This document shows, one piece after another, positions 1,662-15,478 of a stretch of 15,478 nucleotides of DNA. The notes under the pieces were generated by a model that did not search any database, had not been told where the DNA came from, and worked only from the letters and a program-made list of their open reading frames with translations. The DNA is taken from NCBI GenBank assembly GCA_950071955.1, contig CATMOC010000020.1, positions 1-15,478 on the forward strand, in the 5' to 3' direction. The stretch comes from an uncultured Mesorhizobium sp. (GTDB lineage: Bacteria > Pseudomonadota > Alphaproteobacteria > Rhizobiales > Rhizobiaceae). The position numbers and the translations under genes were made by a program. How positions within the stretch are numbered: position 1 is the stretch's first letter; every line of letters begins with the position of its first letter.

Positions 1662-2387
1662 TCAGATGCCGGACCGCGCTTCCAGGCGGGCCATGTGGTC
1701 GATGACCACGTGCCGGTTGTTCTCGATCCTGATGACGCCGTCGGCACGCAGCCGCGTCAGTTGCCGGCTGACCGTCTCGATCGTGAGGCCGAGGAAATCG
1801 GCGATGTCGGCACGGGTAAGCGGCAGGTCGAAGCTGGCGCCCGGCCGGGTCCGCGCCGTCGGGTCGATGTTACGGGCGATGAGCAGCAGGAAGCTCGCGA
1901 CCTTCTCGGCGGCGGTCTTGCGGCCAAGGGTGACCATCCAGTCGCGCGCCTCGTCGAGTTCCTTCAGCGTCTGGGTCAGAAGAAGATGCTCCAGGCCGGG
2001 GCTTTCCTTCATCATGCGTTCGATGGTCGCCTTCGGAAAGGAGCACAGAGCGACGTCGGTGGCGGCTTCCGCGTTGATCGCGCTTTCGGCCCTGAAGGGT
2101 CGCCCCAGGAAATCAGGGGCGAACTGGAGGCCAACGATCTGCTGGCGTCCGTCCGACAGGGTCTTCGTCAGCTTCACGACCCCGCCGAGCACGTTCGAAT
2201 AGTGGTCGATCGTCTCCTGGTCCCCCACCAGTTCGGCGCCGGCTTCGATCTTCTGCTTCGAGGACGTCTTGGAGAGGCCGAGCAGCTGATCGGGCGACAG
2301 CGCGCCGCATATCCCCCGGTGGCGCGCCTCGCACGCTTCGCAGAGGGCGGGCACGCCCGAGGTATGAATGTCCTGCCTGTCAGCCAT
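1662..2387 (-). CDS. fnrN: FnrN-type oxygen-sensing Crp/Fnr transcription regulator
   Basis: The product is a 241-residue Crp/Fnr regulator. Cysteines C16, C19 and C27 (CX2CX7C) plus C115 (VALCSF) are the expected ligands of an oxygen-labile 4Fe-4S cluster; the CX2CX7C spacing is that of rhizobial FnrN and differs from the CX2CX5C of E. coli Fnr. A cyclic-nucleotide-binding-like beta barrel spans about residues 30-125, a dimerisation helix about 128-160, and a C-terminal helix-turn-helix (LTRADIADFLGLTIETVSRQL) carries E204, S207 and R208, the E-x-x-S-R set that reads TTGAT half sites. It diverges from hemN, and an FNR box lies about 80 bases upstream of its ATG, consistent with the autoregulation known for fnrN. 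The ribosome site is weak. It is the likely regulator of all FNR boxes in this window, although a FixK from elsewhere could share them. Confidence 0.95.
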   Translation of the reverse strand: MADRQDIHTSGVPALCEACEARHRGICGALSPDQLLGLSKTSSKQKIEAGAELVGDQETIDHYSNVLGGVVKLTKTLSDGRQQIVGLQFAPDFLGRPFRAESAINAEAATDVALCSFPKATIERMMKESPGLEHLLLTQTLKELDEARDWMVTLGRKTAAEKVASFLLLIARNIDPTARTRPGASFDLPLTRADIADFLGLTIETVSRQLTRLRADGVIRIENNRHVVIDHMARLEARSGI

Positions 2388-2467
2388 CTAACCGCAATCG
2401 CCGTTGCGCCCGTGTAGCGGAATTGCTCGCGCCAATCTCGCGCCAGATTGTCTCATCCGGCGCCACA

Positions 2468-2481
2468 TTGACCGAAATCAA
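2468..2481. promoter_or_regulatory. FNR/FixK-type anaerobox between fnrN and hemN
   Basis: TTGAC-CGAA-ATCAA matches the FNR/FixK dyad at nine of ten informative bases. Its centre is about 61 bases from the hemN ATG and about 87 bases from the fnrN ATG. Assuming a site near -41, the hemN transcript would start about 20 bases before its ATG, in front of the AAGGGAG ribosome site. Shared control of fnrN (autoregulation) and hemN (activation) is the simplest reading. Confidence 0.85.
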
Positions 2482-2535
2482 GGTTGCGCGGAAGCCCGGC
2501 GTGCATCCGGGGAGTATTGCAAGGGAGCCTTTCGG

Positions 2536-3885
2536 ATGCGCCACGAGAACAAGTCACGATTGAACGAAGCCGTGCCGCGCTACACGAGCTACCCGACGGC
2601 GCCGCATTTCCACGCCGGCATCACGGCCGACACCGTCCGCGAATGGATCCTCCGGATCGAGCGCGAGGAGCCGATCTCGCTCTATCTCCATGTCCCCTTC
2701 TGCGACCGCCTCTGCTGGTTCTGTGCCTGCCATACCAAGCAGACCCGGCAGTACGAACCGGTGGCGAGTTACGTGCGCTCGCTCTGCCGGGAGATCGAGA
2801 CCGTGTCGGGCCTGATCGGCAACCGGGCACCGGTGCGGGCCATCCATTTCGGCGGCGGTTCGCCGACCATGCTGAAACCCGAGGACATCATGGCGCTGGG
2901 CGCAACGGTGCGCGGTTCGTTCCGGCTGGTGGACGAGCCCGAGATCAGCGTGGAGATTGATCCCAACGACATGACGGACGAGCGGCTGGACGCATTCGCC
3001 GCGATCGGCATGACGCGGGCCAGCCTCGGGGTGCAGGATTTCGACCCGAAGGTGCAGAAGGCGATCAATCGCGACCAGAGTTTCGAACTCACCGAGCGCG
3101 TGGTCGACGGCCTGCGCGCGCGCGGCATCGCCTCCATCAATCTCGACCTGCTCTACGGCCTGCCGCATCAGACCTGCGCGACGCTGGAGCAAACGGTGCG
3201 CATGGCGCTCAGCCTCGCGCCCGACCGGATCGCCCTCTTCGGCTATGCCCACGTCCCGTGGTTCAAGAAGCACCAGACCATGATCGCCGACGAATGGCTG
3301 CCGCTGCCTGAGGAACGCTATGCCCAATCCATGCTGGCGGCCCGCCTGATCGCCGAAGCCGGCTACGAGGCGATCGGCATCGACCATTTTGCCAGGCCGG
3401 AAGACAGTCTCGCGGCGGCGGCGCGGGAAGGGCGGCTCAGGCGGAATTTCCAGGGCTACACCGACGAGCGCTGCGACACCCTCATCGGCCTCGGCGCCTC
3501 CTCGATCAGCAGGTTCCGGCAGGGATACGCGCAGAACCAGCCGGCGACCTCGGTCTATCAGCGAACGGTGGACGAGGGCGGCCTGGCGACGGTCAGGGGC
3601 ATCGAACTCAGCGCGGAAGATCATGCGCGCGCCTGGATCATCGAACGTCTGATGTGCGATTTCGCCTTCGACGGCGAGGAAGCGGCGGTCCGATTCGGAC
3701 CCGTTGCGCGGCCGCTCATCGCCGAAGCGGCGCTGCTCTCGACCACCGGACGGCATCCATGGCTCGTTCGGCGCGGCGACGTCTTCGTCGTGCCGGAAGA
3801 ACACAGGCCTCTCGTGCGGACCGTGGCCGCCCGGTTCGACAGCTACCTGAAGCAGGGCGAGGCACGGCACTCCGCGGCGGTGTGA
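2536..3885 (+). CDS. hemN: oxygen-independent coproporphyrinogen III oxidase (radical SAM)
   Basis: HemN converts coproporphyrinogen III to protoporphyrinogen IX by radical SAM chemistry when oxygen is too low for HemF. The product is 449 residues, close to the usual 450-460. The 4Fe-4S/SAM motif is C56, C60, C63 (HVPFCDRLCWFC), followed by C65 as in genuine HemN rather than in the HemW look-alikes. The GGGSPTML stretch at about residues 107-114 is the SAM-binding glycine motif, and the N-terminal VPRYTSYPTAPHF is a HemN hallmark. I chose the ATG at 2536, preceded by AAGGGAG at eight bases; the frame stays open 44 codons further upstream but that part runs through the FNR box and has no homology I recognise. 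Haem supply for the cbb3 oxidase at low oxygen explains its position beside fnrN and ccoN. Confidence 0.96.
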   Translation: MRHENKSRLNEAVPRYTSYPTAPHFHAGITADTVREWILRIEREEPISLYLHVPFCDRLCWFCACHTKQTRQYEPVASYVRSLCREIETVSGLIGNRAPVRAIHFGGGSPTMLKPEDIMALGATVRGSFRLVDEPEISVEIDPNDMTDERLDAFAAIGMTRASLGVQDFDPKVQKAINRDQSFELTERVVDGLRARGIASINLDLLYGLPHQTCATLEQTVRMALSLAPDRIALFGYAHVPWFKKHQTMIADEWLPLPEERYAQSMLAARLIAEAGYEAIGIDHFARPEDSLAAAAREGRLRRNFQGYTDERCDTLIGLGASSISRFRQGYAQNQPATSVYQRTVDEGGLATVRGIELSAEDHARAWIIERLMCDFAFDGEEAAVRFGPVARPLIAEAALLSTTGRHPWLVRRGDVFVVPEEHRPLVRTVAARFDSYLKQGEARHSAAV

Positions 3886-5166: not shown

Positions 5167-7293
5167 TCAGGCGAACATTAGGCTGCGCAGCAGATCGGGG
5201 ATGATCTGCAGGGCTTTCAGCGCGGCCTTCAGCTCCGCCTGATCCGGGCGCGACAGCGCGCCTGTTTCGACGCGGTTGGAAACGGCGATGCCGGCCAAAA
5301 GGTCGCGGCTCTGCTGCGCGAGCATCGCCTTGAGGATGGTGCCATGCGCGGCGACCAGCCGGTCGAAGTCGCTTTCGCTGCCGATCCCCAGGCCGCCCAG
5401 GGCTTCGAGACGCTCCCGCGTCGATCGAACCCGCAGGTCGTGCCGGATCGCCAGGGCGCGGGAGAAGGCGACGAGCGGAAACAACCCGTGCTTCTTAAGG
5501 TCGACGCGCCCCTCTTCGGTGCGGAAGCCGCCGAGCAGCGTGAAAGGCCCGGCACCCATCGAGATGCGTTCGCCGAGCAGCTTGGCGAAGACCGGATTGC
5601 CGCTACCCATGGCATAGGCGTGATCGAACAGCGTATTCGCCAGGGCGAACTCGCCCCAGACCGGCCTGAGGTCGAAGAAGATGTCGACGTTGAGCAGGTC
5701 CTCGGGACGGGAGCGCTGAACCCAGTCCGAGATGCGACCGAGCCAGAGCGCTGACGAGCCGCGCCAGGCGGCGTTCCTCGCCATGACGCCGCCGGTGCAA
5801 TAGGGAACGCCGGCGGCATTCAGGATCGCCGCGATCTTCTCGCCGAAGGATCCGAACCAGCGGTCCTCCAGTCCGTCGGGATCGCCTTCGGCAAAGACGA
5901 TCGCATTGTCCTGGTCGGCCGCGAGCAGGCTTTCGCCGCGGCCCCCGGAGCCCAGCACCATCACACAATAGGGGCAGGGCGGACCACCCAGGCCTTCCGA
6001 CGCCATCTCGGCCTCCGCCAGCTGCGCGGCACGGCGGGTGACGATGCGCAGTTCCTCGCTGACGATCTCGGCGATGTTGCGGGCTTCGATGTGTTCGCCG
6101 ATCAGGGCTTCGGCGACCGCGGGCAGGGTCGACCATGCCGAGGCGAGTTCCTTCGCGTCGGCCGCCGCGTCGATCTCGTCGTCGAGGCTGATCGCGGCGC
6201 CGGCGCGCAACCTCAGCAGGTCGCGGGCCGAGATCACGCCGGCAAGCCTGTCGTGCTCGTCGCGGACCGCAAGGTGGCGGATCCTGAGCCGGTCCATCCG
6301 TCCGATCGCCCGGTAGACGAAAGCGGCGCCGCGGATGCTGGCGAGCGGACGCGTCGCGTACGTGCCAACCGGATCGGCGAAGGCAGCCTCTCCCCTCGCA
6401 GCGATGCGGCGCATCATGTCGCGCTCCGTCGCGATCCCGTAGGCACTCACCGGTTCGCCTGTGTCGCCCGTGTCCGAGACGAAGACCGAACTGATCCGCC
6501 GCTCGACCATGAGCGAGATCACGTCGCGTGTGGTCGCCGACGCAGGCACCACGACCGGCGGCGCGCTCATCACGTCCGCGACGCGGTGCCTGTAGGCGTA
6601 GGGGTCGATCGAACCGAAGGCCCTCGGTCCTGCGAGCGCGTCGGGCCGGGTCACCGGCTCGGCCCAGCCTGCGCGATGGTGCGTCTCCAGCTGGCCCGTG
6701 AGCGCCAGGCACGCGCGCTCCGCCTCGGCAAGCGTGCGGATGCCCCTTTTCTCGAGATGCGGCAGGAGCGCCACGAAGATGTCGGCCGCCGCCTTCGCGT
6801 CTCCCGGCGCCTGATGCCGCCCCTCGATGGCGATGCCGAGCCAGCTGGCGGTCATGTCGAGCGACTGGTCGGGTAGGTTCGGATTGGCGATCGACGCCAG
6901 CATGCGCACGCACAGCGTACGCGGCTTTTTCCAGGGGATGCCTGCGCTGCGCGCCTCACGCTCCAGGATGGCGAGGTCGAAGCCGATGGAGAAGCCGACG
7001 AGCACCCTGCCGCAGGCGAAGGCGCCGAAGCGCGCCCAGGCCTCCCGGAACTCCGGCGCGTTGCGCGTCATGGCATTGGTGATGCCGTGGATGGCCGTGG
7101 ACGCTCCGGGGATGCCGATCTTCGGATCGACGAGGGTCTCGAAACTCTCCTGCGCCCGGACGCGTCCACCGGAAATGGCGACTGCCGCGATCTGGACCAG
7201 CGACGCCCTGGCCGTGTCGAGCCCGGTCGTCTCGGTATCGACCGCCAACGCGTCGAGCACGGCAAGCGGCGTTGCTCCGCTGGTAATCTTCAT
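5167..7293 (-). CDS. exonuclease / CBS pair / DUF294 nucleotidyltransferase fusion
   Basis: The product is 708 residues with three parts. Residues 12-180 are a DnaQ-like DEDDh 3'-5' exonuclease with D19 and E21 (VDTETTG), D106 (GFSIGFDLAIL), H160 and D165 (HQAPGDAKAAADIF), all ligands present. Residues about 228-365 are two CBS domains (VADVMSAPPVVV; RHLAVRDEHDRLAGVISARDLL), likely nucleotide sensors. Residues about 385-550 are a DUF294/GlnD-like nucleotidyltransferase with GSGGRGE (448-454) and the acidic pair D460 and D462, followed by the DUF294 C-terminal helical part. In Pseudomonas and Vibrio relatives I recall these as separate neighbouring genes next to an acetate-type Na+/solute symporter; here they are fused and no symporter is in view. 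I chose the ATG at 7293 because GGGGAGG lies six bases upstream; a GTG at 7323 in frame lacks one. An FNR-like box stands 48 bases upstream. Targets of the two enzymatic domains are unknown. Confidence 0.9.
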   Translation of the reverse strand: MKITSGATPLAVLDALAVDTETTGLDTARASLVQIAAVAISGGRVRAQESFETLVDPKIGIPGASTAIHGITNAMTRNAPEFREAWARFGAFACGRVLVGFSIGFDLAILEREARSAGIPWKKPRTLCVRMLASIANPNLPDQSLDMTASWLGIAIEGRHQAPGDAKAAADIFVALLPHLEKRGIRTLAEAERACLALTGQLETHHRAGWAEPVTRPDALAGPRAFGSIDPYAYRHRVADVMSAPPVVVPASATTRDVISLMVERRISSVFVSDTGDTGEPVSAYGIATERDMMRRIAARGEAAFADPVGTYATRPLASIRGAAFVYRAIGRMDRLRIRHLAVRDEHDRLAGVISARDLLRLRAGAAISLDDEIDAAADAKELASAWSTLPAVAEALIGEHIEARNIAEIVSEELRIVTRRAAQLAEAEMASEGLGGPPCPYCVMVLGSGGRGESLLAADQDNAIVFAEGDPDGLEDRWFGSFGEKIAAILNAAGVPYCTGGVMARNAAWRGSSALWLGRISDWVQRSRPEDLLNVDIFFDLRPVWGEFALANTLFDHAYAMGSGNPVFAKLLGERISMGAGPFTLLGGFRTEEGRVDLKKHGLFPLVAFSRALAIRHDLRVRSTRERLEALGGLGIGSESDFDRLVAAHGTILKAMLAQQSRDLLAGIAVSNRVETGALSRPDQAELKAALKALQIIPDLLRSLMFA

Positions 7294-7340
7294 GCGGCAC
7301 CTCCCCGAAGGGGTGATTACCACGTCCCGGCGCTTCCTTG

Positions 7341-7354
7341 TTGATCCTGATCAT
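7341..7354 (-). promoter_or_regulatory. FNR/FixK-type anaerobox upstream of the exonuclease-CBS-DUF294 gene
   Basis: On the plus strand TTGAT-CCTG-ATCAT matches TTGAT-N4-ATCAA at nine of ten informative bases (only the last base differs). It is centred about 54 bases from the ATG at 7293, and the gene on the other side ends rather than starts here, so the site can only serve the fusion gene. A site at -41 would put the transcript start close to the ribosome site, giving a very short leader. The match is seen; the regulation is inferred. Confidence 0.7.
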
Positions 7355-7373
7355 GGAGGAAGGCAACGCGTAG

Positions 7374-7409
7374 AAAATCGCCCGGCGGATTTCTCCGCCG
7401 GGCGATTTT
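7374..7409 (-). terminator. strong intrinsic terminator after the OmpA-family gene
   Basis: A perfect 16-bp stem (7374-7389 with 7394-7409) encloses a four-base loop. The stem has a GC core flanked by AAAA on one side and TTTT on the other, so it can act in both directions. It begins 20 bases after the stop codon at 7430 of the minus-strand gene. It also insulates the exonuclease-fusion promoter just beyond it from readthrough. Confidence 0.88.
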
Positions 7410-7429
7410 ACAGAGTCGTATCTGCGGGT

Positions 7430-9298
7430 CTACTGGGCGCTCGCGACCGGGGTCACCAGCGGCGTGATGCGCCGGATCGCGACGCGACGGTTCTCACGCG
7501 ACGGACCGTCGGTTGCGATCTTCAGGTACCGTTCGCCGTAGCCCTGGGTGACGAGGTTCTCCGGCGGGATGTCGTAGTACTGCGTCAGGACGGTGGCGAC
7601 CCCTTCGGCACGGGCGTCCGACAACGCGAGGTTCGACACGTCAGACCCCACGGCGTCGGTGTGACCCTCGATCAGGAAGGTTTCCGCCGGGTTCTCGTCC
7701 AGCATCCGCTGGATGGCCGACGCGATACCCTCGAGTTCGTCGACTTCACTCGGATCGACCTGCGCCGACCCGGTCGGGAACGTGATCGTATCGAGATCGA
7801 CCCGCCGTACCGTATCGCGCAGCCTCGCCGACCGCTTGACGTCGTCGACGGAATAGAGCTGACGCGCCCTTTCCACCGGCGGCTGGTCAAGGAACTGGTA
7901 GTACCGGTCCGGATCTTCGACCTGGCCCGCGTCCAGAATGTACTCGCGATAGGGAATACGCAGACGGAGCGGCGGCAGGTCCCGGCCCGGATCGCGCCAT
8001 TCGCGCTGGCGGTCGTAATCGCGCTCGTCCACATAAGTGAGGATGACCTCGCGACCGTCCGGCATCACCCGGGAACGGCGGATCACATCGCCGAAGCGGT
8101 TGCGCACCGTCACGATCTGCACGCCGTTCGGCCGGACGATCGTCTCGCGAACGCGACCGCGCGGCAGTTCCTCGTAGTAGATGTCCTCCGCATTGCGTTC
8201 CAGGCGCCCACGGTCGGGACCGCGCACGAACGTCTCGCCGCCGAGCTGGTAGATTATGCGCTCGCCGATCTCGCGCAGCACGTCGGCACCTTCGGGGCGC
8301 TCGTCGCGTTCGCGCCGATACTCCTCGCGGTCGATGCGACGGCCCTCCGTGGCTGTGATCGATTCGATGTCGCGCGGGGAGATTTCCGGCGTCTGGGCGT
8401 CCTGGTCCGAGGTCGGGGGCGGAACGTCTTCTGTTTCAGGGACGTCGACTTCGGGCACCGGCTGATCGCCGTCCGCCACGCCGGGCTGCTTGGCGCTGTC
8501 CAGGATCGGCGCGGCGTTTTCCGGCATGACGTCGGACTGGTCGCCGGGAGGCGGCGACGGCTGGTCCGAGGGAGCCGGAGCGGCCTCGGGAGCAGGCGGG
8601 GTTCCCTTCGGGACCGGTTGCACGGGCGCATCTCCTGCCGGCGCGGGCTGCTGCTGCGGCGCGGGGGCGTCGGCGGCGGGCTGGTCGGCTCCGCCGTTGG
8701 GGGCTGGGGTGGCACCATCCCGGGGCGCCGCGTCCGCGGGTGGAGGTTCGACGGCCGGCGCGCCGGCGGCAGGCTTGTCGGTCTGCGCGGGCTGCTCCGC
8801 TTCAGGCGCCGGGTCCTGCGGCTGAGGCCGTGGCTCGGGCGCCTCCATGGCAGGTGCGTCCTGCGGGGCGGCATCCCCCTTTGGTGCCGGTTCAGGCGGG
8901 ATTTCGGCCTGCGGTGCTTCCTTGGGAGCGGGTTCCGGAGCAGCCTGTGGCGCGGCCTCGGGTTCGGGATTGGCCTGTGGCGCGGCCTGGGGCTCGGGAG
9001 CCGGCTGCGGTTCGGCTGCCTGCTCGGGCTGGGGCTCGGGCGCGGGTTCGGCGGCGTTCGGTGCCGGAGCCGGCTCTTGCGCCGTTGGCTGTGGAGCCGG
9101 AGCGGGCTGATCGCCCGCCGGAGCCGGCTGGTCGCCTTCCTTCAGCGGGACCTCCTCCGCGGGAGGAGCGTCGTTCTGCGCCAGCAGGATGTTCTCCGGC
9201 GCGACGGTGCCGGCCTGGCGCTCGTCGGCAAAGACGGGCGCCGACGCCATCAGCACGCCAAGTGCTGTGCCGGCGACGATGCGTGCATGAAGTTTCAT
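7430..9298 (-). CDS. OmpA-family outer-membrane/peptidoglycan protein with long Pro/Ala-rich region
   Basis: The product is 622 residues. Residues 1-24 are a signal peptide (cleavage after PVFA, before D25). Residues about 43-300 are a low-complexity region dominated by Pro, Ala, Glu and Gln (EPAPEPQ-like units), predicted disordered and long enough to span much of the periplasm. Residues about 300-490 are a charged region rich in Arg, Asp and Tyr with a repeated RxxxPxG pattern. The C-terminal OmpA-like domain (about 500-612) has FPTGSAQV, IEGHTDAVGS with D547, and LSDARAEGV with D561 and R563, matching the peptidoglycan-binding residues of OmpA/Pal. No OmpA-type N-terminal beta barrel is evident. 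AGAGGA precedes the ATG at about ten bases. It is followed by a strong terminator, so it is probably a single-gene unit. A role in envelope integrity is inferred. Confidence 0.9.
   Translation of the reverse strand: MKLHARIVAGTALGVLMASAPVFADERQAGTVAPENILLAQNDAPPAEEVPLKEGDQPAPAGDQPAPAPQPTAQEPAPAPNAAEPAPEPQPEQAAEPQPAPEPQAAPQANPEPEAAPQAAPEPAPKEAPQAEIPPEPAPKGDAAPQDAPAMEAPEPRPQPQDPAPEAEQPAQTDKPAAGAPAVEPPPADAAPRDGATPAPNGGADQPAADAPAPQQQPAPAGDAPVQPVPKGTPPAPEAAPAPSDQPSPPPGDQSDVMPENAAPILDSAKQPGVADGDQPVPEVDVPETEDVPPPTSDQDAQTPEISPRDIESITATEGRRIDREEYRRERDERPEGADVLREIGERIIYQLGGETFVRGPDRGRLERNAEDIYYEELPRGRVRETIVRPNGVQIVTVRNRFGDVIRRSRVMPDGREVILTYVDERDYDRQREWRDPGRDLPPLRLRIPYREYILDAGQVEDPDRYYQFLDQPPVERARQLYSVDDVKRSARLRDTVRRVDLDTITFPTGSAQVDPSEVDELEGIASAIQRMLDENPAETFLIEGHTDAVGSDVSNLALSDARAEGVATVLTQYYDIPPENLVTQGYGERYLKIATDGPSRENRRVAIRRITPLVTPVASAQ
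8560..9170 (-). repeat. imperfect short repeats encoding the Pro/Ala-rich region
   Basis: This part of the OmpA-family gene is built from degenerate units that encode EPAPEP, APQA and QPAPAG-like peptides. One clear case is the 16-base word GCCTGTGGCGCGGCCT, which occurs at 8943 and again at 8973, exactly ten codons apart. Such tracts change length easily by slippage or recombination. Confidence 0.7.
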
Positions 9299-11750: not shown

Positions 11751-12680
11751 CTAGAAGCCGACCTTGTCGCCTCCCTTGAGGCTCAGCATCGCCCGCGCGT
11801 CGGCCGGCGTGGCGATTTCCATTCCCAGTTCCTCGATGATCCGCCTGATCTTGGCGACCTGTTCGGCATTCGAGCGGGCGAGCTTGCCGCGGCCGATGTA
11901 GAGGGAGTCCTCGAGACCAACCCGGACGTTTCCGCCCAATAGTGCGGTCATCGTCAGGAAGCCCATCTGGGCCTTGCCGATGCCGAACGAGGACAAGCGG
12001 TAGTCCGATCCGAAGAGCCTGTCCGCCGTCTGCTTGAAGAACATCAGGTTGTCGAGTTCGGCGCCCATGCCGCCCGCGATGCCGAAGACGCCCTGGATGA
12101 AGAAGGGAGGCTCGACCAGACCGCGGTCGACGAACTGCTTCAGATTGTAGAGATGGCCGAGATCGTAGCATTCGAACTCGAAGCGGGTGCCGTAGGCCTG
12201 GCCGACCTCGACCATGATGCGCTCGATCATGTCGAAGCTGTTGGGATAGATCGTGCTCCAGGAATTCTCGACGTAGGACTTCTCCCAGTCGAACTTCCAG
12301 TCCGTGTACTTGCGCGCCAGCTGGGCGACGGAGAAGTTCATGGAGCCCATGTTGAGACTGGTGACCTCCGGCTTGGCGCGATGGGCCGGCGCGAGGCGCT
12401 CGTCGAGCGTCATGCCGAGCCCGCCGCCCGTCGTCAGGTTCAGCACTGCGTCCGTCGACTGCTTGATGCGCGGAAGGAACTGCATGAACAGGTCCGGATC
12501 CTGCCGCGGCCGTCCGGTCTCGGGATCGCGCGCGTGCAGGTGGATGATCGCGGCGCCGGCTTCCGCCGCCTCGATCGCGGAGGCCGCGATCTCCTGCGGC
12601 GTGATCGGCAGGTGCGGCGACATAGTCGGCGTGTGGATGCCTCCGGTGATGGCACAGGTGATGATGACTTTGTCCGTCAT
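11751..12680 (-). CDS. beta-keto acid cleavage enzyme (BKACE, DUF849)
   Basis: The product is 309 residues of the Kce/BKACE family: TIM-barrel, divalent-metal enzymes that cleave a 3-keto acid with acetyl-CoA, giving acetoacetate and a CoA ester. H47 and H49 in IIHLHARDP and E257 in VRVGLEDSL match the metal-binding positions of the family. NLTTGGG (81-87) and SLNMGSMNF (108-116) are further family signatures. Characterised members act on 3-keto-5-aminohexanoate or dehydrocarnitine among others, and substrate cannot be assigned from motifs alone. The ATG lies four bases after the dehydrogenase stop codon, with GGGAGGG inside the end of that gene as its ribosome site, so the two are co-translated. 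The upstream dehydrogenase most likely supplies its 3-keto acid. Confidence 0.92.
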   Translation of the reverse strand: MTDKVIITCAITGGIHTPTMSPHLPITPQEIAASAIEAAEAGAAIIHLHARDPETGRPRQDPDLFMQFLPRIKQSTDAVLNLTTGGGLGMTLDERLAPAHRAKPEVTSLNMGSMNFSVAQLARKYTDWKFDWEKSYVENSWSTIYPNSFDMIERIMVEVGQAYGTRFEFECYDLGHLYNLKQFVDRGLVEPPFFIQGVFGIAGGMGAELDNLMFFKQTADRLFGSDYRLSSFGIGKAQMGFLTMTALLGGNVRVGLEDSLYIGRGKLARSNAEQVAKIRRIIEELGMEIATPADARAMLSLKGGDKVGF

Positions 12681-12684
12681 GGGA

Positions 12685-13626
12685 TCAGTTCCCTCCCGCT
12701 GGTGACTCGAGTTCGTTCTTCAGAGACATCAGGCGCATCAGCGCCCGGTCGCGCCAGCGCATCCTTTCGCCCACGGCCGCGCGGGGAGTTTCCCGCCGCC
12801 GGCTGTCTTCGATCGTCTGCAAGGCGTGGTCCTGCCACGCTTCCCCGACATGCAGGTCGCGCCCCATCGCCTGGTAGAGATGGCCGTAGCGGGCGGCGTA
12901 GTCGAGGAAGCCGTCGGGCGCGTTCAGGTCCATGGTCTCGAAGGGGCCCATGAGGGCCCAGCGCAACCCGAGACTGTGTTTCATCACCGCGTCGAGATCC
13001 GCGGGGTCGATAACGCCGCGGGCGACGAGCCCGACGGCTTCGTTCACCACCGCGGTCTGCAGGCGGTTCATGACGAAGCCTTCGATCTCCTTGCGCACCA
13101 CGACCGGCACCTGGCCGATCGATGCGAGCACGCCGCATACCTCCACTACGAAGGCATCGGCGTGCCAGGGCGAGGGCGCGACTTCCACGACCGGCATGAG
13201 GTGGGGCGGATTTGCCGGATGGGCTACGATGCAGCGGTCGCGGCCCGGGATTTCGGAAAGGAACCGGCTTCCGACGATCGAACTGGAGGAGCTTCCGATG
13301 GGCACCCCGTCGGGCGCATGCCGGTCGAGAAGTCCGAACACGCCGCGTTTGATGTCCGCGTCTTCGGGAACGCTTTCCTGCACGTAGTCCGTGTCCTGCA
13401 GGGCTTCGGCGAGCCTGTCTGCGGCGCGGACGCGCGAAGCCGCCGCGTCCGGATTGGCGACGAGACCCACTGCGGCCATGTCGCCCAGCGCCGTTTTCAC
13501 CGAAGACAGCGCCGAGACCGCCGCGCCGGGTTCGCGATCCCAGAGGCTGACGTCCCAGCCGGCCCGGGCAAAGGCTATTGCCCATCCGCGACCGATCAGT
13601 CCCGTCCCGATGATCCCTGCACGCAT
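12685..13626 (-). CDS. 3-hydroxyacid dehydrogenase, CRYL1/L-gulonate 3-dehydrogenase-like
   Basis: The product is 313 residues of the 3-hydroxyacyl-CoA dehydrogenase superfamily. The N-terminal Rossmann part has GTGLIGRGW (7-15) and D30 at the end of the second strand, pointing to NAD. VAHPANPPHLMPVVEV carries the catalytic H136 and E148. The C-terminal helical part (KEIEGFVMNRLQ; LRWALMGPFETMDLNAPDG; WRDRALMRLMSLK) tracks lambda-crystallin/L-gulonate 3-dehydrogenase closely; carnitine 3-dehydrogenases are also related. Its partner BKACE suggests oxidation of a free 3-hydroxy acid rather than a CoA ester. AGGGA lies ten bases before the ATG. A promoter and two repeat operators lie immediately upstream. 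Confidence 0.88.
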   Translation of the reverse strand: MRAGIIGTGLIGRGWAIAFARAGWDVSLWDREPGAAVSALSSVKTALGDMAAVGLVANPDAAASRVRAADRLAEALQDTDYVQESVPEDADIKRGVFGLLDRHAPDGVPIGSSSSSIVGSRFLSEIPGRDRCIVAHPANPPHLMPVVEVAPSPWHADAFVVEVCGVLASIGQVPVVVRKEIEGFVMNRLQTAVVNEAVGLVARGVIDPADLDAVMKHSLGLRWALMGPFETMDLNAPDGFLDYAARYGHLYQAMGRDLHVGEAWQDHALQTIEDSRRRETPRAAVGERMRWRDRALMRLMSLKNELESPAGGN

Positions 13627-13640
13627 GATCCCGAGTCCCT

Positions 13641-13694
13641 TCTGATATCGCAGTTAAGCGCCACACGCGTCTGACGTCAATCTGATATCGCAGT
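13641..13694 (-). promoter_or_regulatory. paired 14-bp operator-like repeats around the dehydrogenase promoter
   Basis: TCTGATATCGCAGT occurs identically at 13641-13654 and 13681-13694, exactly 40 bases (about four helical turns) apart. On the minus strand one copy lies just before the -35 hexamer and the other starts inside the -10 hexamer. The core CTGATATCGCAG is a near-palindrome around GATATC. The upstream copy also overlaps a perfect dyad, GCAGTA-A-TACTGC (13690-13702). This geometry suits a dimeric repressor binding co-operatively on one DNA face; no regulator gene is in the window. Confidence 0.75.
13652..13680 (-). promoter_or_regulatory. sigma70-like promoter of the dehydrogenase-BKACE operon
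   Basis: On the minus strand TTGACG (13680-13675) and TTAACT (13657-13652) are separated by 17 bases. The -35 box is nearly ideal; the -10 box matches only three of six bases, as is common in alphaproteobacteria or in activator-assisted promoters. Transcription would begin near 13645, about 20 bases before the ATG. Confidence 0.6.
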
Positions 13695-13709
13695 AATACT
13701 GCACGCTTT

Positions 13710-14726
13710 TCAGGCCTGTGTTTGCCGTGGCGGAAGGTTTGGCAGTCTCAGTTCACGATTTCCGGTGATGCCCTTCGGCCGCAGCATGAGGACGATGAGC
13801 ATGATGATCGCTAGGCCGACCTCGCGCAGGCCGGGCATCGCCGGGACCGTCAGCCCGACGACCGTGAACCCGCCGGCCACGGTGCGGAGCATCTCGCCCA
13901 GGAACGCGATCACGATGGCGCCGATCACGGCACCCGAAAGGCTGTGCTGGCCACCGATGACGAGCATCGCAAGGGTGAGGAAGGTCAGTTCCAGGTAGAA
14001 CTGGCTGACGGAGAGTATGCCGATCGCGTGGCCTTGCAGGACGCCGCTGGCTCCCACGACCGCCGCCGACAGGACGAAGGCGGCGAGCCGCAACCGGCGG
14101 ACCGCGATGCCCGACGCGAGCGCGGCCGCCTCGTCCTCGCGCGAGGCCCGCAGCATCAGGCCGGCCCGCGAACCGGCGAACACGCTCGCCACCAGCAGCG
14201 AGGCGAGCACGACGGCCGTGGCGATGGGCAGGTTCACCGCGAGCGGCAGGCCGATCAGCGAGGCCGTGCCCTTGGTCAGACCGGTCGCATGCGACATGGT
14301 CGTGTTGACGATGGCAAGGAACGCCAGCGTCGCGATGCTGGCGCCGATGCCGGCCAGCCGCACGACGGCGACGCCGAAGACGGCGGCCACGATCGCGGCG
14401 AGCAGCATCCCCGTGGCCATGCCGCCCCAGAGCCCCAGGTCGGTCGACAGCACGAAGGCCGGAAGGTCGGGCAGGAACACCTTCTTGGTGATCACGGGGA
14501 TGGTGAACCACGCCGCCGCATAGGCCGCGATCCCGGCGAAAGCCGCATGCCCGAACGAAAGGATGCCGGTGTTCGACACGAAGATGGAGAGCCCGATCAC
14601 GAAGGCCAGCTTGACCATCATGTCGATCGCGAAGCGCGCCGTCGCGGCCGAACCCAGATAGCCGGGCAGCGTCGCCAGCAGGATCATGCCCGCGAGGAGG
14701 AGATATGTCTGCACCCGGCCGGACAT
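13710..14726 (-). CDS. livM: branched-chain amino acid-type ABC transporter permease LivM
   Basis: The product is 338 residues, a normal length for LivM, with about nine to ten hydrophobic segments. LSFGHAAFAGIAAYAAAW (about residues 55-72) and the cytoplasmic coupling motif GGQHSLSGAVIGAIVIAFLGEML (about 256-278) are family signatures. It forms the inner-membrane channel with LivH. The ATG shares one base with the livH stop codon, so translation is coupled. The HAAT family carries branched-chain amino acids but also other acids, amides and aromatic compounds; the adjacent dehydrogenase and BKACE suggest a hydroxy or keto acid. The ATPases and binding protein are not in the window and are presumably upstream. 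Confidence 0.93.
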   Translation of the reverse strand: MSGRVQTYLLLAGMILLATLPGYLGSAATARFAIDMMVKLAFVIGLSIFVSNTGILSFGHAAFAGIAAYAAAWFTIPVITKKVFLPDLPAFVLSTDLGLWGGMATGMLLAAIVAAVFGVAVVRLAGIGASIATLAFLAIVNTTMSHATGLTKGTASLIGLPLAVNLPIATAVVLASLLVASVFAGSRAGLMLRASREDEAAALASGIAVRRLRLAAFVLSAAVVGASGVLQGHAIGILSVSQFYLELTFLTLAMLVIGGQHSLSGAVIGAIVIAFLGEMLRTVAGGFTVVGLTVPAMPGLREVGLAIIMLIVLMLRPKGITGNRELRLPNLPPRQTQA

Positions 14727-15478
14727 CAGACGCGCTCTCGCGCGGAGGCGGGACGGAAGAGCCCCTGCGGCCGCAGCACGAGGACCATGATGACCGCCAG
14801 GTAGACGAAGGCCTCGCGGAAGGGCCGCAGGTCGGTGGGGAGCAGCACCTGCAGGAACACCGTCACCATGCCGACGGCCAGGCCGCCGAGGACTGCGCCC
14901 GGGAGGCTGCCCATGCCGCCGACCACGGTCGCCACGAAGCCGATCAGCGCCAGGTGCAGCCCGAGGCGGGGCTCCACCACCCCCGTCTGGGCGACGTAGA
15001 GTACCGCCGCCGAGGAGGCCAGGATGCCGCTGAGGCCGAACGCCACCGCGATGACCCGGTTGGCCCGGATGCCGAGCAGCCGCGCCATCTGGAAGTCCAC
15101 CGCGGCCGCCCGCATCTCCACGCCGATCCGCGTCTTCCTCAGGAAGGCGCCCGTGGCCAGGAGCAGGAAGATCGTCACCCCGATCGTGACGATCTGGATC
15201 ATGGGCACGCGGATGTCGCCGATCATGAGCGGCTGCGAAAGCGAAGGCAGGATGTTCAATCCCATCGGGCGGGCTCCGAAGATCAGGACCAGGGTGTTCT
15301 GCAGGAGGTAGCTTAGCGCGAAGCTGGTGATCAGGAGGGTCGAGGGATTGGCCCCGCGCACGGGACGGAAGGCCAGCCGCTCGGACAGCAGCGCCAGCAG
15401 CAGCGCGCCGCCCGCGGCGAAGAACAGCGCGACGGGAAAGCCCAGCCCGATCGCCAGCACGAGGATATAGACGGTCAC
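14726..15478 (-). CDS. livH: branched-chain amino acid-type ABC transporter permease LivH, partial
   Basis: About 250 residues are visible and the reading frame continues through the right edge, so the true N-terminus (roughly 35-45 residues in the family) is missing; the GTG at the edge is an internal valine codon. Multiple membrane segments and the coupling motif GGMGSLPGAVLGGLAVGMV near the C-terminus identify it, along with RAAAVDFQMARLLGIRANRVIAVAF in the loop typical of LivH. It pairs with LivM as the second permease subunit. Confidence 0.93.
   Translation of the reverse strand: MTVYILVLAIGLGFPVALFFAAGGALLLALLSERLAFRPVRGANPSTLLITSFALSYLLQNTLVLIFGARPMGLNILPSLSQPLMIGDIRVPMIQIVTIGVTIFLLLATGAFLRKTRIGVEMRAAAVDFQMARLLGIRANRVIAVAFGLSGILASSAAVLYVAQTGVVEPRLGLHLALIGFVATVVGGMGSLPGAVLGGLAVGMVTVFLQVLLPTDLRPFREAFVYLAVIMVLVLRPQGLFRPASARERV

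Follow-up and report, generated by a model that had tools for sequence, protein, structure and literature searches.

A stretch of 15,478 nucleotides from an uncultured Mesorhizobium sp. (contig CATMOC010000020.1 of assembly GCA_950071955.1; referred to as the window) contains a gene that encodes a DEDDh exonuclease, a pair of CBS domains and a DUF294 nucleotidyltransferase in a single chain, and the locus raises the question of what an exonuclease and a nucleotidyltransferase do together in one protein. The answer proposed here, to which a probability of about 0.4 is assigned, is that the fusion protein acts in the manner of GlnD and GlnE, as a self-contained switch that nucleotidylates a protein reversibly, with the DEDDh domain as eraser, the CBS pair as sensor and, most likely, a component of SLC5-type organic-acid uptake as target. 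The parts themselves are known, and the fused architecture is already present in databases, for example under the name 'DNA polymerase-3 subunit epsilon/CBS domain-containing protein'; what would, tentatively, be new is a switch of the GlnD/GlnE kind in which other domains erase and sense. The DUF294 family is widespread: 226 of the 299 Pseudomonadota genomes sampled hold a match (the weakest matches probably including GlnD or GlnE), and the fusion both ties this family to an exonuclease partner and yields a testable claim, namely that a nuclease fold can serve as eraser of a protein tag.

Domains and conserved active sites of the fusion protein

Profile searches with Pfam identified every part of the chain far above its cut-off, including RNase_T (PF00929; E 7.6e-26, 92.1 bits versus a cut-off of 24), two CBS stretches (E 4.1e-17), DUF294 (PF03445; E 1.6e-37, 128.9 bits versus 21) and DUF294_C (PF10335; E 2.5e-26, 92.7 bits versus 22.5), which confirms the single-chain fusion that a preliminary description had read from the letters of the DNA. 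The only other Pfam family detected was Rv2179c-like, which overlaps RNase_T; cyclic-nucleotide-binding, HD, ACT and second transferase domains were not found in the fusion protein by this search. The first CBS stretch (residues 238-298) was delimited by Pfam, and the second half was placed by PDB profile matches. All five DEDDh residues are present, and the exonuclease part, which judged by its profile and these residues is a member of the 3'-5' exonuclease family, matches the DnaQ/PolC exonucleases in predicted structure. The transferase part displays the GS-x-G/A-R ... D-x-D motif, with GSGGRGE starting at residue 448 and followed by D460 and D462, and the catalytic residues of both enzymatic parts were located exactly where the preliminary description had placed them.

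Of 7996 proteins scored in a protein search, 3648 matched at E <= 1e-3, and all four Pfam families were present in each of the 120 matches listed (120/120, the window's own protein included). Stretches encoding relatives numbered 409 in named genomes, and the 80 best served as the set of relatives. They match over nearly the full length and derive, by record title, mostly from Hyphomicrobiales and some other Alphaproteobacteria, and also include four metagenome-assembled genomes of Gammaproteobacteria, one labelled Acidobacteria, and a few records without class. An assembly or annotation artefact was rejected as an explanation of the fusion, since the 120 listed proteins (of 3648) share the same four families and the 80 loci match at near full length. 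Conservation of the catalytic residues in orthologues, on which the preliminary description had let its reading depend, was found throughout this set: D106, H160 and D165 are kept in 80/80 relatives, and D19, E21, D460 and D462 in 79/80, the lone exception being a gap each time. In a 59-sequence alignment the catalytic residues are invariant, as are D537, D541, C499 and G501. One relative (L072) has an internal stop within the matched stretch.

The T/S-x-x-D signature of CBS half-sites binds the ribose of adenine nucleotides. Since this signature is kept in both half-sites (T289 in 79/80 relatives, with S in the other, and D292 in 80/80; S/T355 in 80/80 and D358 in 74/80), adenine-nucleotide sensing by the CBS pair is plausible on the basis of sequence; the earlier suggestion of such a sensor holds as far as the signature is concerned, with an adenine nucleotide as candidate ligand. 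Among the fold matches of the predicted structure is 2rif, a CBS protein solved with AMP.

Fused and split forms, exonuclease partners and linked symporters

According to the preliminary description, the parts are separate neighbours beside a symporter gene in other bacteria, and neighbourhood surveys bore this out. For Pseudomonadota, 80 loci were fetched of 150 listed places, representing 73 of the 75 odd ranks plus 7 more; the two odd ranks omitted were the window's own gene and a place within a region already fetched. Five of these loci are fused and 62 have a co-directional DEDDh frame at a distance of <=700 bases, with 6 more having DEDDh elsewhere in the locus and 7 lacking any. A recount by domain distance (<=1.5 kb) gave 5 fused loci, 51 with the exonuclease co-directional and downstream, 2 upstream, 15 farther and 7 with none (4, 47, 1, 14 and 7, respectively, in the 73 odd-rank loci). 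The one background comparison for adjacency comes from within the same 80 loci, where 62 exonuclease matches are adjacent versus 10 elsewhere. Of ten split proteins that were scanned, seven carry a cyclic-nucleotide-binding domain, with the L133 match falling under the curated cut-off.

For Alphaproteobacteria, 289 genomes were surveyed with a profile of the fusion (E <= 1e-40), which matched 55 of them and gave full-length fusion matches in 15/289. The matching genomes hold 54 DUF294 genes, comprising 15 full-length fusions (11 without stops) and 15 genes directly preceded by a co-directional DEDDh gene (gap <=151 bases), with the split point at residue 216-219 in two of the latter (G420 and G515). 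For other genes, the DEDDh match is convergent within <=700 bases (6), lies at <=2.2 kb (4) or is farther away (5). Internal stops occur within the matched stretch in 8/15 upstream-exonuclease rows and 4/15 full-length rows, and in G374 and G432 one exonuclease may count for two DUF294 genes. Both fused and split forms were found, an unfused DUF294 gene usually having an adjoining DEDDh gene, and because the two surveys find the parts together, the unit is a transferase with a DEDDh partner, joined in different ways. The fusion does speak for joint action of the parts, as the preliminary description had argued.

In a quick tree, made without bootstrap, the 33 fused exonuclease domains form one clade (Shimodaira-Hasegawa-like approximate likelihood ratio test, 98), which gives the fused exonuclease one origin among the sampled sequences. 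Chance fusion with a housekeeping DnaQ was rejected, as the fused clade stands apart from the presumably epsilon-type exonucleases of the same genomes. The 62 adjacent split partners (loci L112-L191) keep the first D, the E and the H in 62/62 and the last D in 61/62, and the strict DUF294 motif is kept in 94/100 frames, five of the other six differing only by S/T after DQD.

The sixth frame belongs to the same locus as the exceptional exonuclease, L189 (DUF294 frame 5945-7969 and exonuclease frame from 7945, both on the + strand). Its last exonuclease D is replaced by N and its DUF294 reads SVQNN where others have SDQDN, both active sites being lost together, a single case among the 62 pairs. 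Another locus (L274:1393-3474:-, from the same genome as L150) holds a frame of 694 residues that ends in a DEDDh domain and shows weak, sub-threshold PAS matches; an unfused CBS-DUF294 gene lies some 3 kb away.

Neighbours of the fusion were analysed in 81 loci, i.e., the 80 relatives and the window locus. An SSF symporter cluster was present in 32/81 and a DUF4212 cluster in 33/81, both assigned by a scanned member, and a hybrid kinase and a LuxR-type regulator occurred in 15/81 and 14/81, respectively. The kinase carries PAS_7, kinase and receiver domains and no SSF domain according to Pfam, and kinase and regulator may be CrbS/R-like. Moreover, an SSF or DUF4212 match was present in 48/80 of the Pseudomonadota DUF294 loci. 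The linked symporters are not one subfamily: among nine that were scanned, six scored above the VC_2705 cut-off, two were ActP-like and one was of the PRK10484 type. VC_2705 symporters (E <= 1e-60) were found in 40/55 Alphaproteobacteria genomes with a fusion-profile match versus 28/234 without (Fisher p 1e-18, a statistic that ignores genome relatedness), and in 29/39 genomes having both, the transferase part and the symporter lie <=8 kb apart.

The proposed switch and its alternatives

Comparison of the predicted DUF294 part with solved structures by Foldseek gave significant matches to GlnE and DrrA only, both of which are protein adenylyltransferases. The preliminary description had placed the nucleotide on a protein or on RNA; its addition and removal remains the best-supported reading, and the modelled fold favours a protein, rather than RNA, as target. 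GlnD has separate domains for writing, erasing and sensing. Its nucleotidyltransferase is accompanied by a helical substrate-binding domain that shares its clan with the one in the fusion protein. The fusion protein has the GlnE/GlnD-type combination of folds, with DEDDh and CBS in the places of the HD and ACT domains of GlnD. DrrA (SidM) has, to our knowledge, no CBS sensor, and its eraser, SidD, is reported to be a separate protein of phosphatase fold. GlnE differs in having two transferase domains, one of which is the eraser (PMC12663964), where the fusion protein has one transferase and one DEDDh domain. DUF294_C has been placed in the same Pfam clan as GlnD_UR_UTase (PMC3710099). In profile comparisons (hhalign; sets after length filters of 30/30 loci for GlnD, 23/24 for PolyA and 13/21 for MNT), the more diverse split DUF294 set matched GlnD over 249 columns. 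The controls gave probabilities of 97.5 for GlnD versus PolyA, but in GlnD columns 458-649, outside the transferase part, 45.0 for GlnD versus MNT and 0.2 for PolyA versus MNT. The transferase profile had no match among PDB sequences up to E 10. Classification of the fusion protein as a GlnD or GlnE was rejected, because the HD and ACT domains of the one and the second transferase domain of the other are missing.

In the proposed switch, the DUF294 and DUF294_C half would move a nucleoside monophosphate (NMP) onto a side chain of the target protein, and the DEDDh half would hydrolyse the protein-NMP phosphodiester to 5'-NMP and free protein. DEDDh enzymes cut the phosphodiester at a 3' end, releasing 5'-NMP. 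A nucleotide held on a protein hydroxyl via its 5' phosphate would chemically resemble the last nucleotide of a nucleic acid, with the protein hydroxyl standing where the ribose 3'-OH would be in a DEDDh substrate. The CBS pair, situated between the two halves, would read an adenine nucleotide and bias both activities, replacing the ACT domains of GlnD, and the target would most likely be a protein of SLC5-type organic-acid uptake, either the symporter or its partner. We infer here the direction of each activity, the donor nucleotide, the CBS ligand and the target, as well as the eraser role of the DEDDh half. That a DEDDh domain became a dedicated eraser of protein nucleotidylation, and that its widespread module, one chain with a GlnE-like writer and an adenine-nucleotide sensor, switches SLC5 organic-acid symporters or their regulators by energy state, is put forward with more doubt.

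Functional data are available from Pseudomonas. In P. putida KT2440, pp_0354 and pp_0353, which encode a CBS protein and an RNase_T protein, respectively, share an operon with an ErdR-bound promoter; growth on pyruvate was slowed by deletion of pp_0353, as it was by deletion of actP-I, but not by deletion of pp_0354, and on acetate or succinate neither the pp_0353 nor the pp_0354 deletion had an effect (PMC9927547). This pair, whose operon belongs to the MxtR/ErdR (CrbS/R) regulon, resembles the fusion in combining a CBS protein and an RNase_T exonuclease. It differs in consisting of two proteins with the CBS-protein gene first, whereas the exonuclease comes first in the fused form, and proteins of the PP_0354 type carry a cyclic-nucleotide-binding domain, which the fused form lacks. 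The P. aeruginosa homologues adjoin actP and yjcH, and the cluster PA3232-PA3235 is reported to be raised on propionate. For the P. fluorescens homologue Pflu5625, cyclic AMP-binding, CBS and transferase domains were reported, and regulation of proteins by nucleotidylation was predicted with reference to Aravind and Koonin 1999 (PMC5715377). The asymmetry between pp_0353 and pp_0354 on pyruvate fits an inhibitory tag that would be left in place without its eraser. That a ribonuclease can erase protein AMPylation is known from RNase Z, which did deAMPylate SelO substrates (PMC12663964); it differs in having a metallo-hydrolase fold and in being a separate protein.

Several observations weigh against the proposed switch. 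An exonuclease that acts alone would account equally well for the pyruvate phenotype, and the fusion keeps an ordinary DnaQ-like active site, of which the substrate may be nucleic acid. The strongest published evidence against a DEDDh eraser concerns RNase T of E. coli: this DEDDh enzyme failed to deAMPylate SodA in vitro or SucA in cells, both proteins having been AMPylated by SelO, a writer with a fold other than the GlnE type (PMC12663964). Because 13/80 Pseudomonadota loci have no co-directional DEDDh open reading frame (ORF) at <=700 bases, and no DEDDh match passed the threshold on the contigs of 9/39 unfused Alphaproteobacteria DUF294 genes, DUF294 may work without an adjacent DEDDh domain or with one encoded elsewhere. 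The split partner exonucleases fall into several clades of the quick tree, for which no number is claimed since the tree groups ADJ and OTH overlap (their change counts of 14 and 11 are inflated, as OTH rows L290-L295 themselves adjoin DUF294 and L274 duplicates an ELS row), and the motif II residue of the 62 split partners is D in 38 and E in 24. A transferase profile made from the fused forms only had no match to GlnD (hhalign probability 0.4). No symporter was found in the window, and the fusion gene there has none beside it; the window's own genome is among the 10/39 in which the symporter is distant (here on contig 350). Finally, the open-licence literature searched yielded neither a measured activity nor a ligand or target for any protein of the DUF294 family.

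The alternative that survives best, although unlikely, is that the DEDDh part is a true RNA exonuclease of particular carbon-metabolism mRNAs and that CBS-DUF294 has a regulatory role, perhaps through nucleotidylation of the exonuclease or of a partner, without the two activities reversing each other. This is close to the mRNA degradation on which the authors of the P. putida study speculate for pp_0353 (PMC9927547), and it agrees with the ordinary DEDDh active site and with single-mutant phenotypes that fit a lone-acting exonuclease, but it leaves unexplained both the persistent linkage or fusion of the exonuclease to a GlnE-like transferase and the recruitment of partners out of several DEDDh clades. 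Turnover of RNA ends, in which nucleotides would be added by the transferase to a tRNA or small RNA at its 3' end and removed again by the DEDDh part, is improbable. The CCA-adding enzyme and RNase T form a precedent for such opposing activities in end turnover, and the fusion does belong to the RNase_T and nucleotidyltransferase families; the significant Foldseek matches of its transferase part are nevertheless GlnE and DrrA instead of RNA-tailing enzymes (an editosome TUTase, or terminal uridylyltransferase, reached E 0.12 and weaker, and poly(A)/CCA enzymes were absent from the best 50 fold matches of the predicted structure), the hhalign comparison with PolyA_pol, which by itself would not exclude poly(A)/CCA enzymes, gave a probability of 0.1-0.2, and a domain of the GlnD/GlnE type makes up the C-terminal part. 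Slightly more improbable still is a cycle with either a nucleotidylated small molecule or a short oligonucleotide as product of the transferase, to be hydrolysed by the DEDDh part, and with the CBS pair reading an adenine nucleotide, as small-molecule transferases are much farther in fold from the transferase part than GlnE and DrrA.

Should the nucleotidylation switch be correct, the DEDDh domain would represent a new eraser fold beside the transferase, Fic, phosphatase and RNase Z metallo-hydrolase folds described in PMC12663964, and uptake of acetate and pyruvate would be subject to a post-translational layer beside the CrbS/R two-component system. In the open-licence literature, the titles and abstract openings among the matches listed neither treat the fusion nor propose a DEDDh eraser for it.

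The gene and its surroundings

Table 1. Positions in the window of the fusion gene, its domains and its upstream signals.
Feature	Positions	Strand	Basis
Coding sequence, 708 residues: DEDDh exonuclease, CBS pair, DUF294 nucleotidyltransferase, DUF294_C	5167..7293	-	Pfam; homologues; ATG backed by ribosome-binding sequence
RNase_T / DEDDh exonuclease domain, residues 17-173; D19, E21, D106, H160, D165	6775..7245	-	Pfam; predicted structure
CBS pair, about residues 238-361; T289-x-x-D292, S355-x-x-D358	6211..6582	-	Pfam; PDB profile matches; conservation
DUF294 nucleotidyltransferase domain, residues 390-530; GSGGRGE at 448, D460, D462	5704..6126	-	Pfam
DUF294_C putative substrate-binding domain, residues 569-697	5203..5589	-	Pfam
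Ribosome-binding sequence GGGGAGG, 6 bases ahead of the ATG	7300..7306	-	by eye
Terminator-like inverted repeat, 16-base arms and 4-base loop, separating the fusion gene from the OmpA-family gene	7374..7409	.	by eye

The fusion gene starts with the ATG at 7293; the longest ORF covering it starts with a GTG at 7323. Its G+C content at third codon positions is 0.86. An OmpA-family gene (7430-9298) lies upstream in the same direction, and a short-chain dehydrogenase gene lies downstream, convergent with the fusion gene and 18 bases off. The inverted repeat between the fusion gene and the OmpA-family gene is perfect and has A/T flanks on both sides (by eye), and its presence suggests that these two genes are transcribed separately. 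Given this terminator-like repeat upstream and the convergent gene downstream, the fusion gene is probably a single-gene transcript.

Among the fusion relatives, a gene for the MscL mechanosensitive channel directly follows the fusion gene in 9/81 loci (cluster C21, e.g., L051:2274-2699:+), and one genome, Mesorhizobium xinjiangense lm94, has two copies of the fusion (L004 and L035) in different gene neighbourhoods. Elsewhere in the window, a hemerythrin-domain gene is located at 602-1147, and the region 1662-3885 holds a radical SAM gene, which we take to resemble hemN, and, divergent from it, a gene for a Crp/Fnr-type regulator. The region 11751-15478 contains genes for BKACE and 3-hydroxyacyl-CoA dehydrogenase; two putative branched-chain amino acid ATP-binding cassette (ABC) permease genes, recognized by eye, lie on the same strand.
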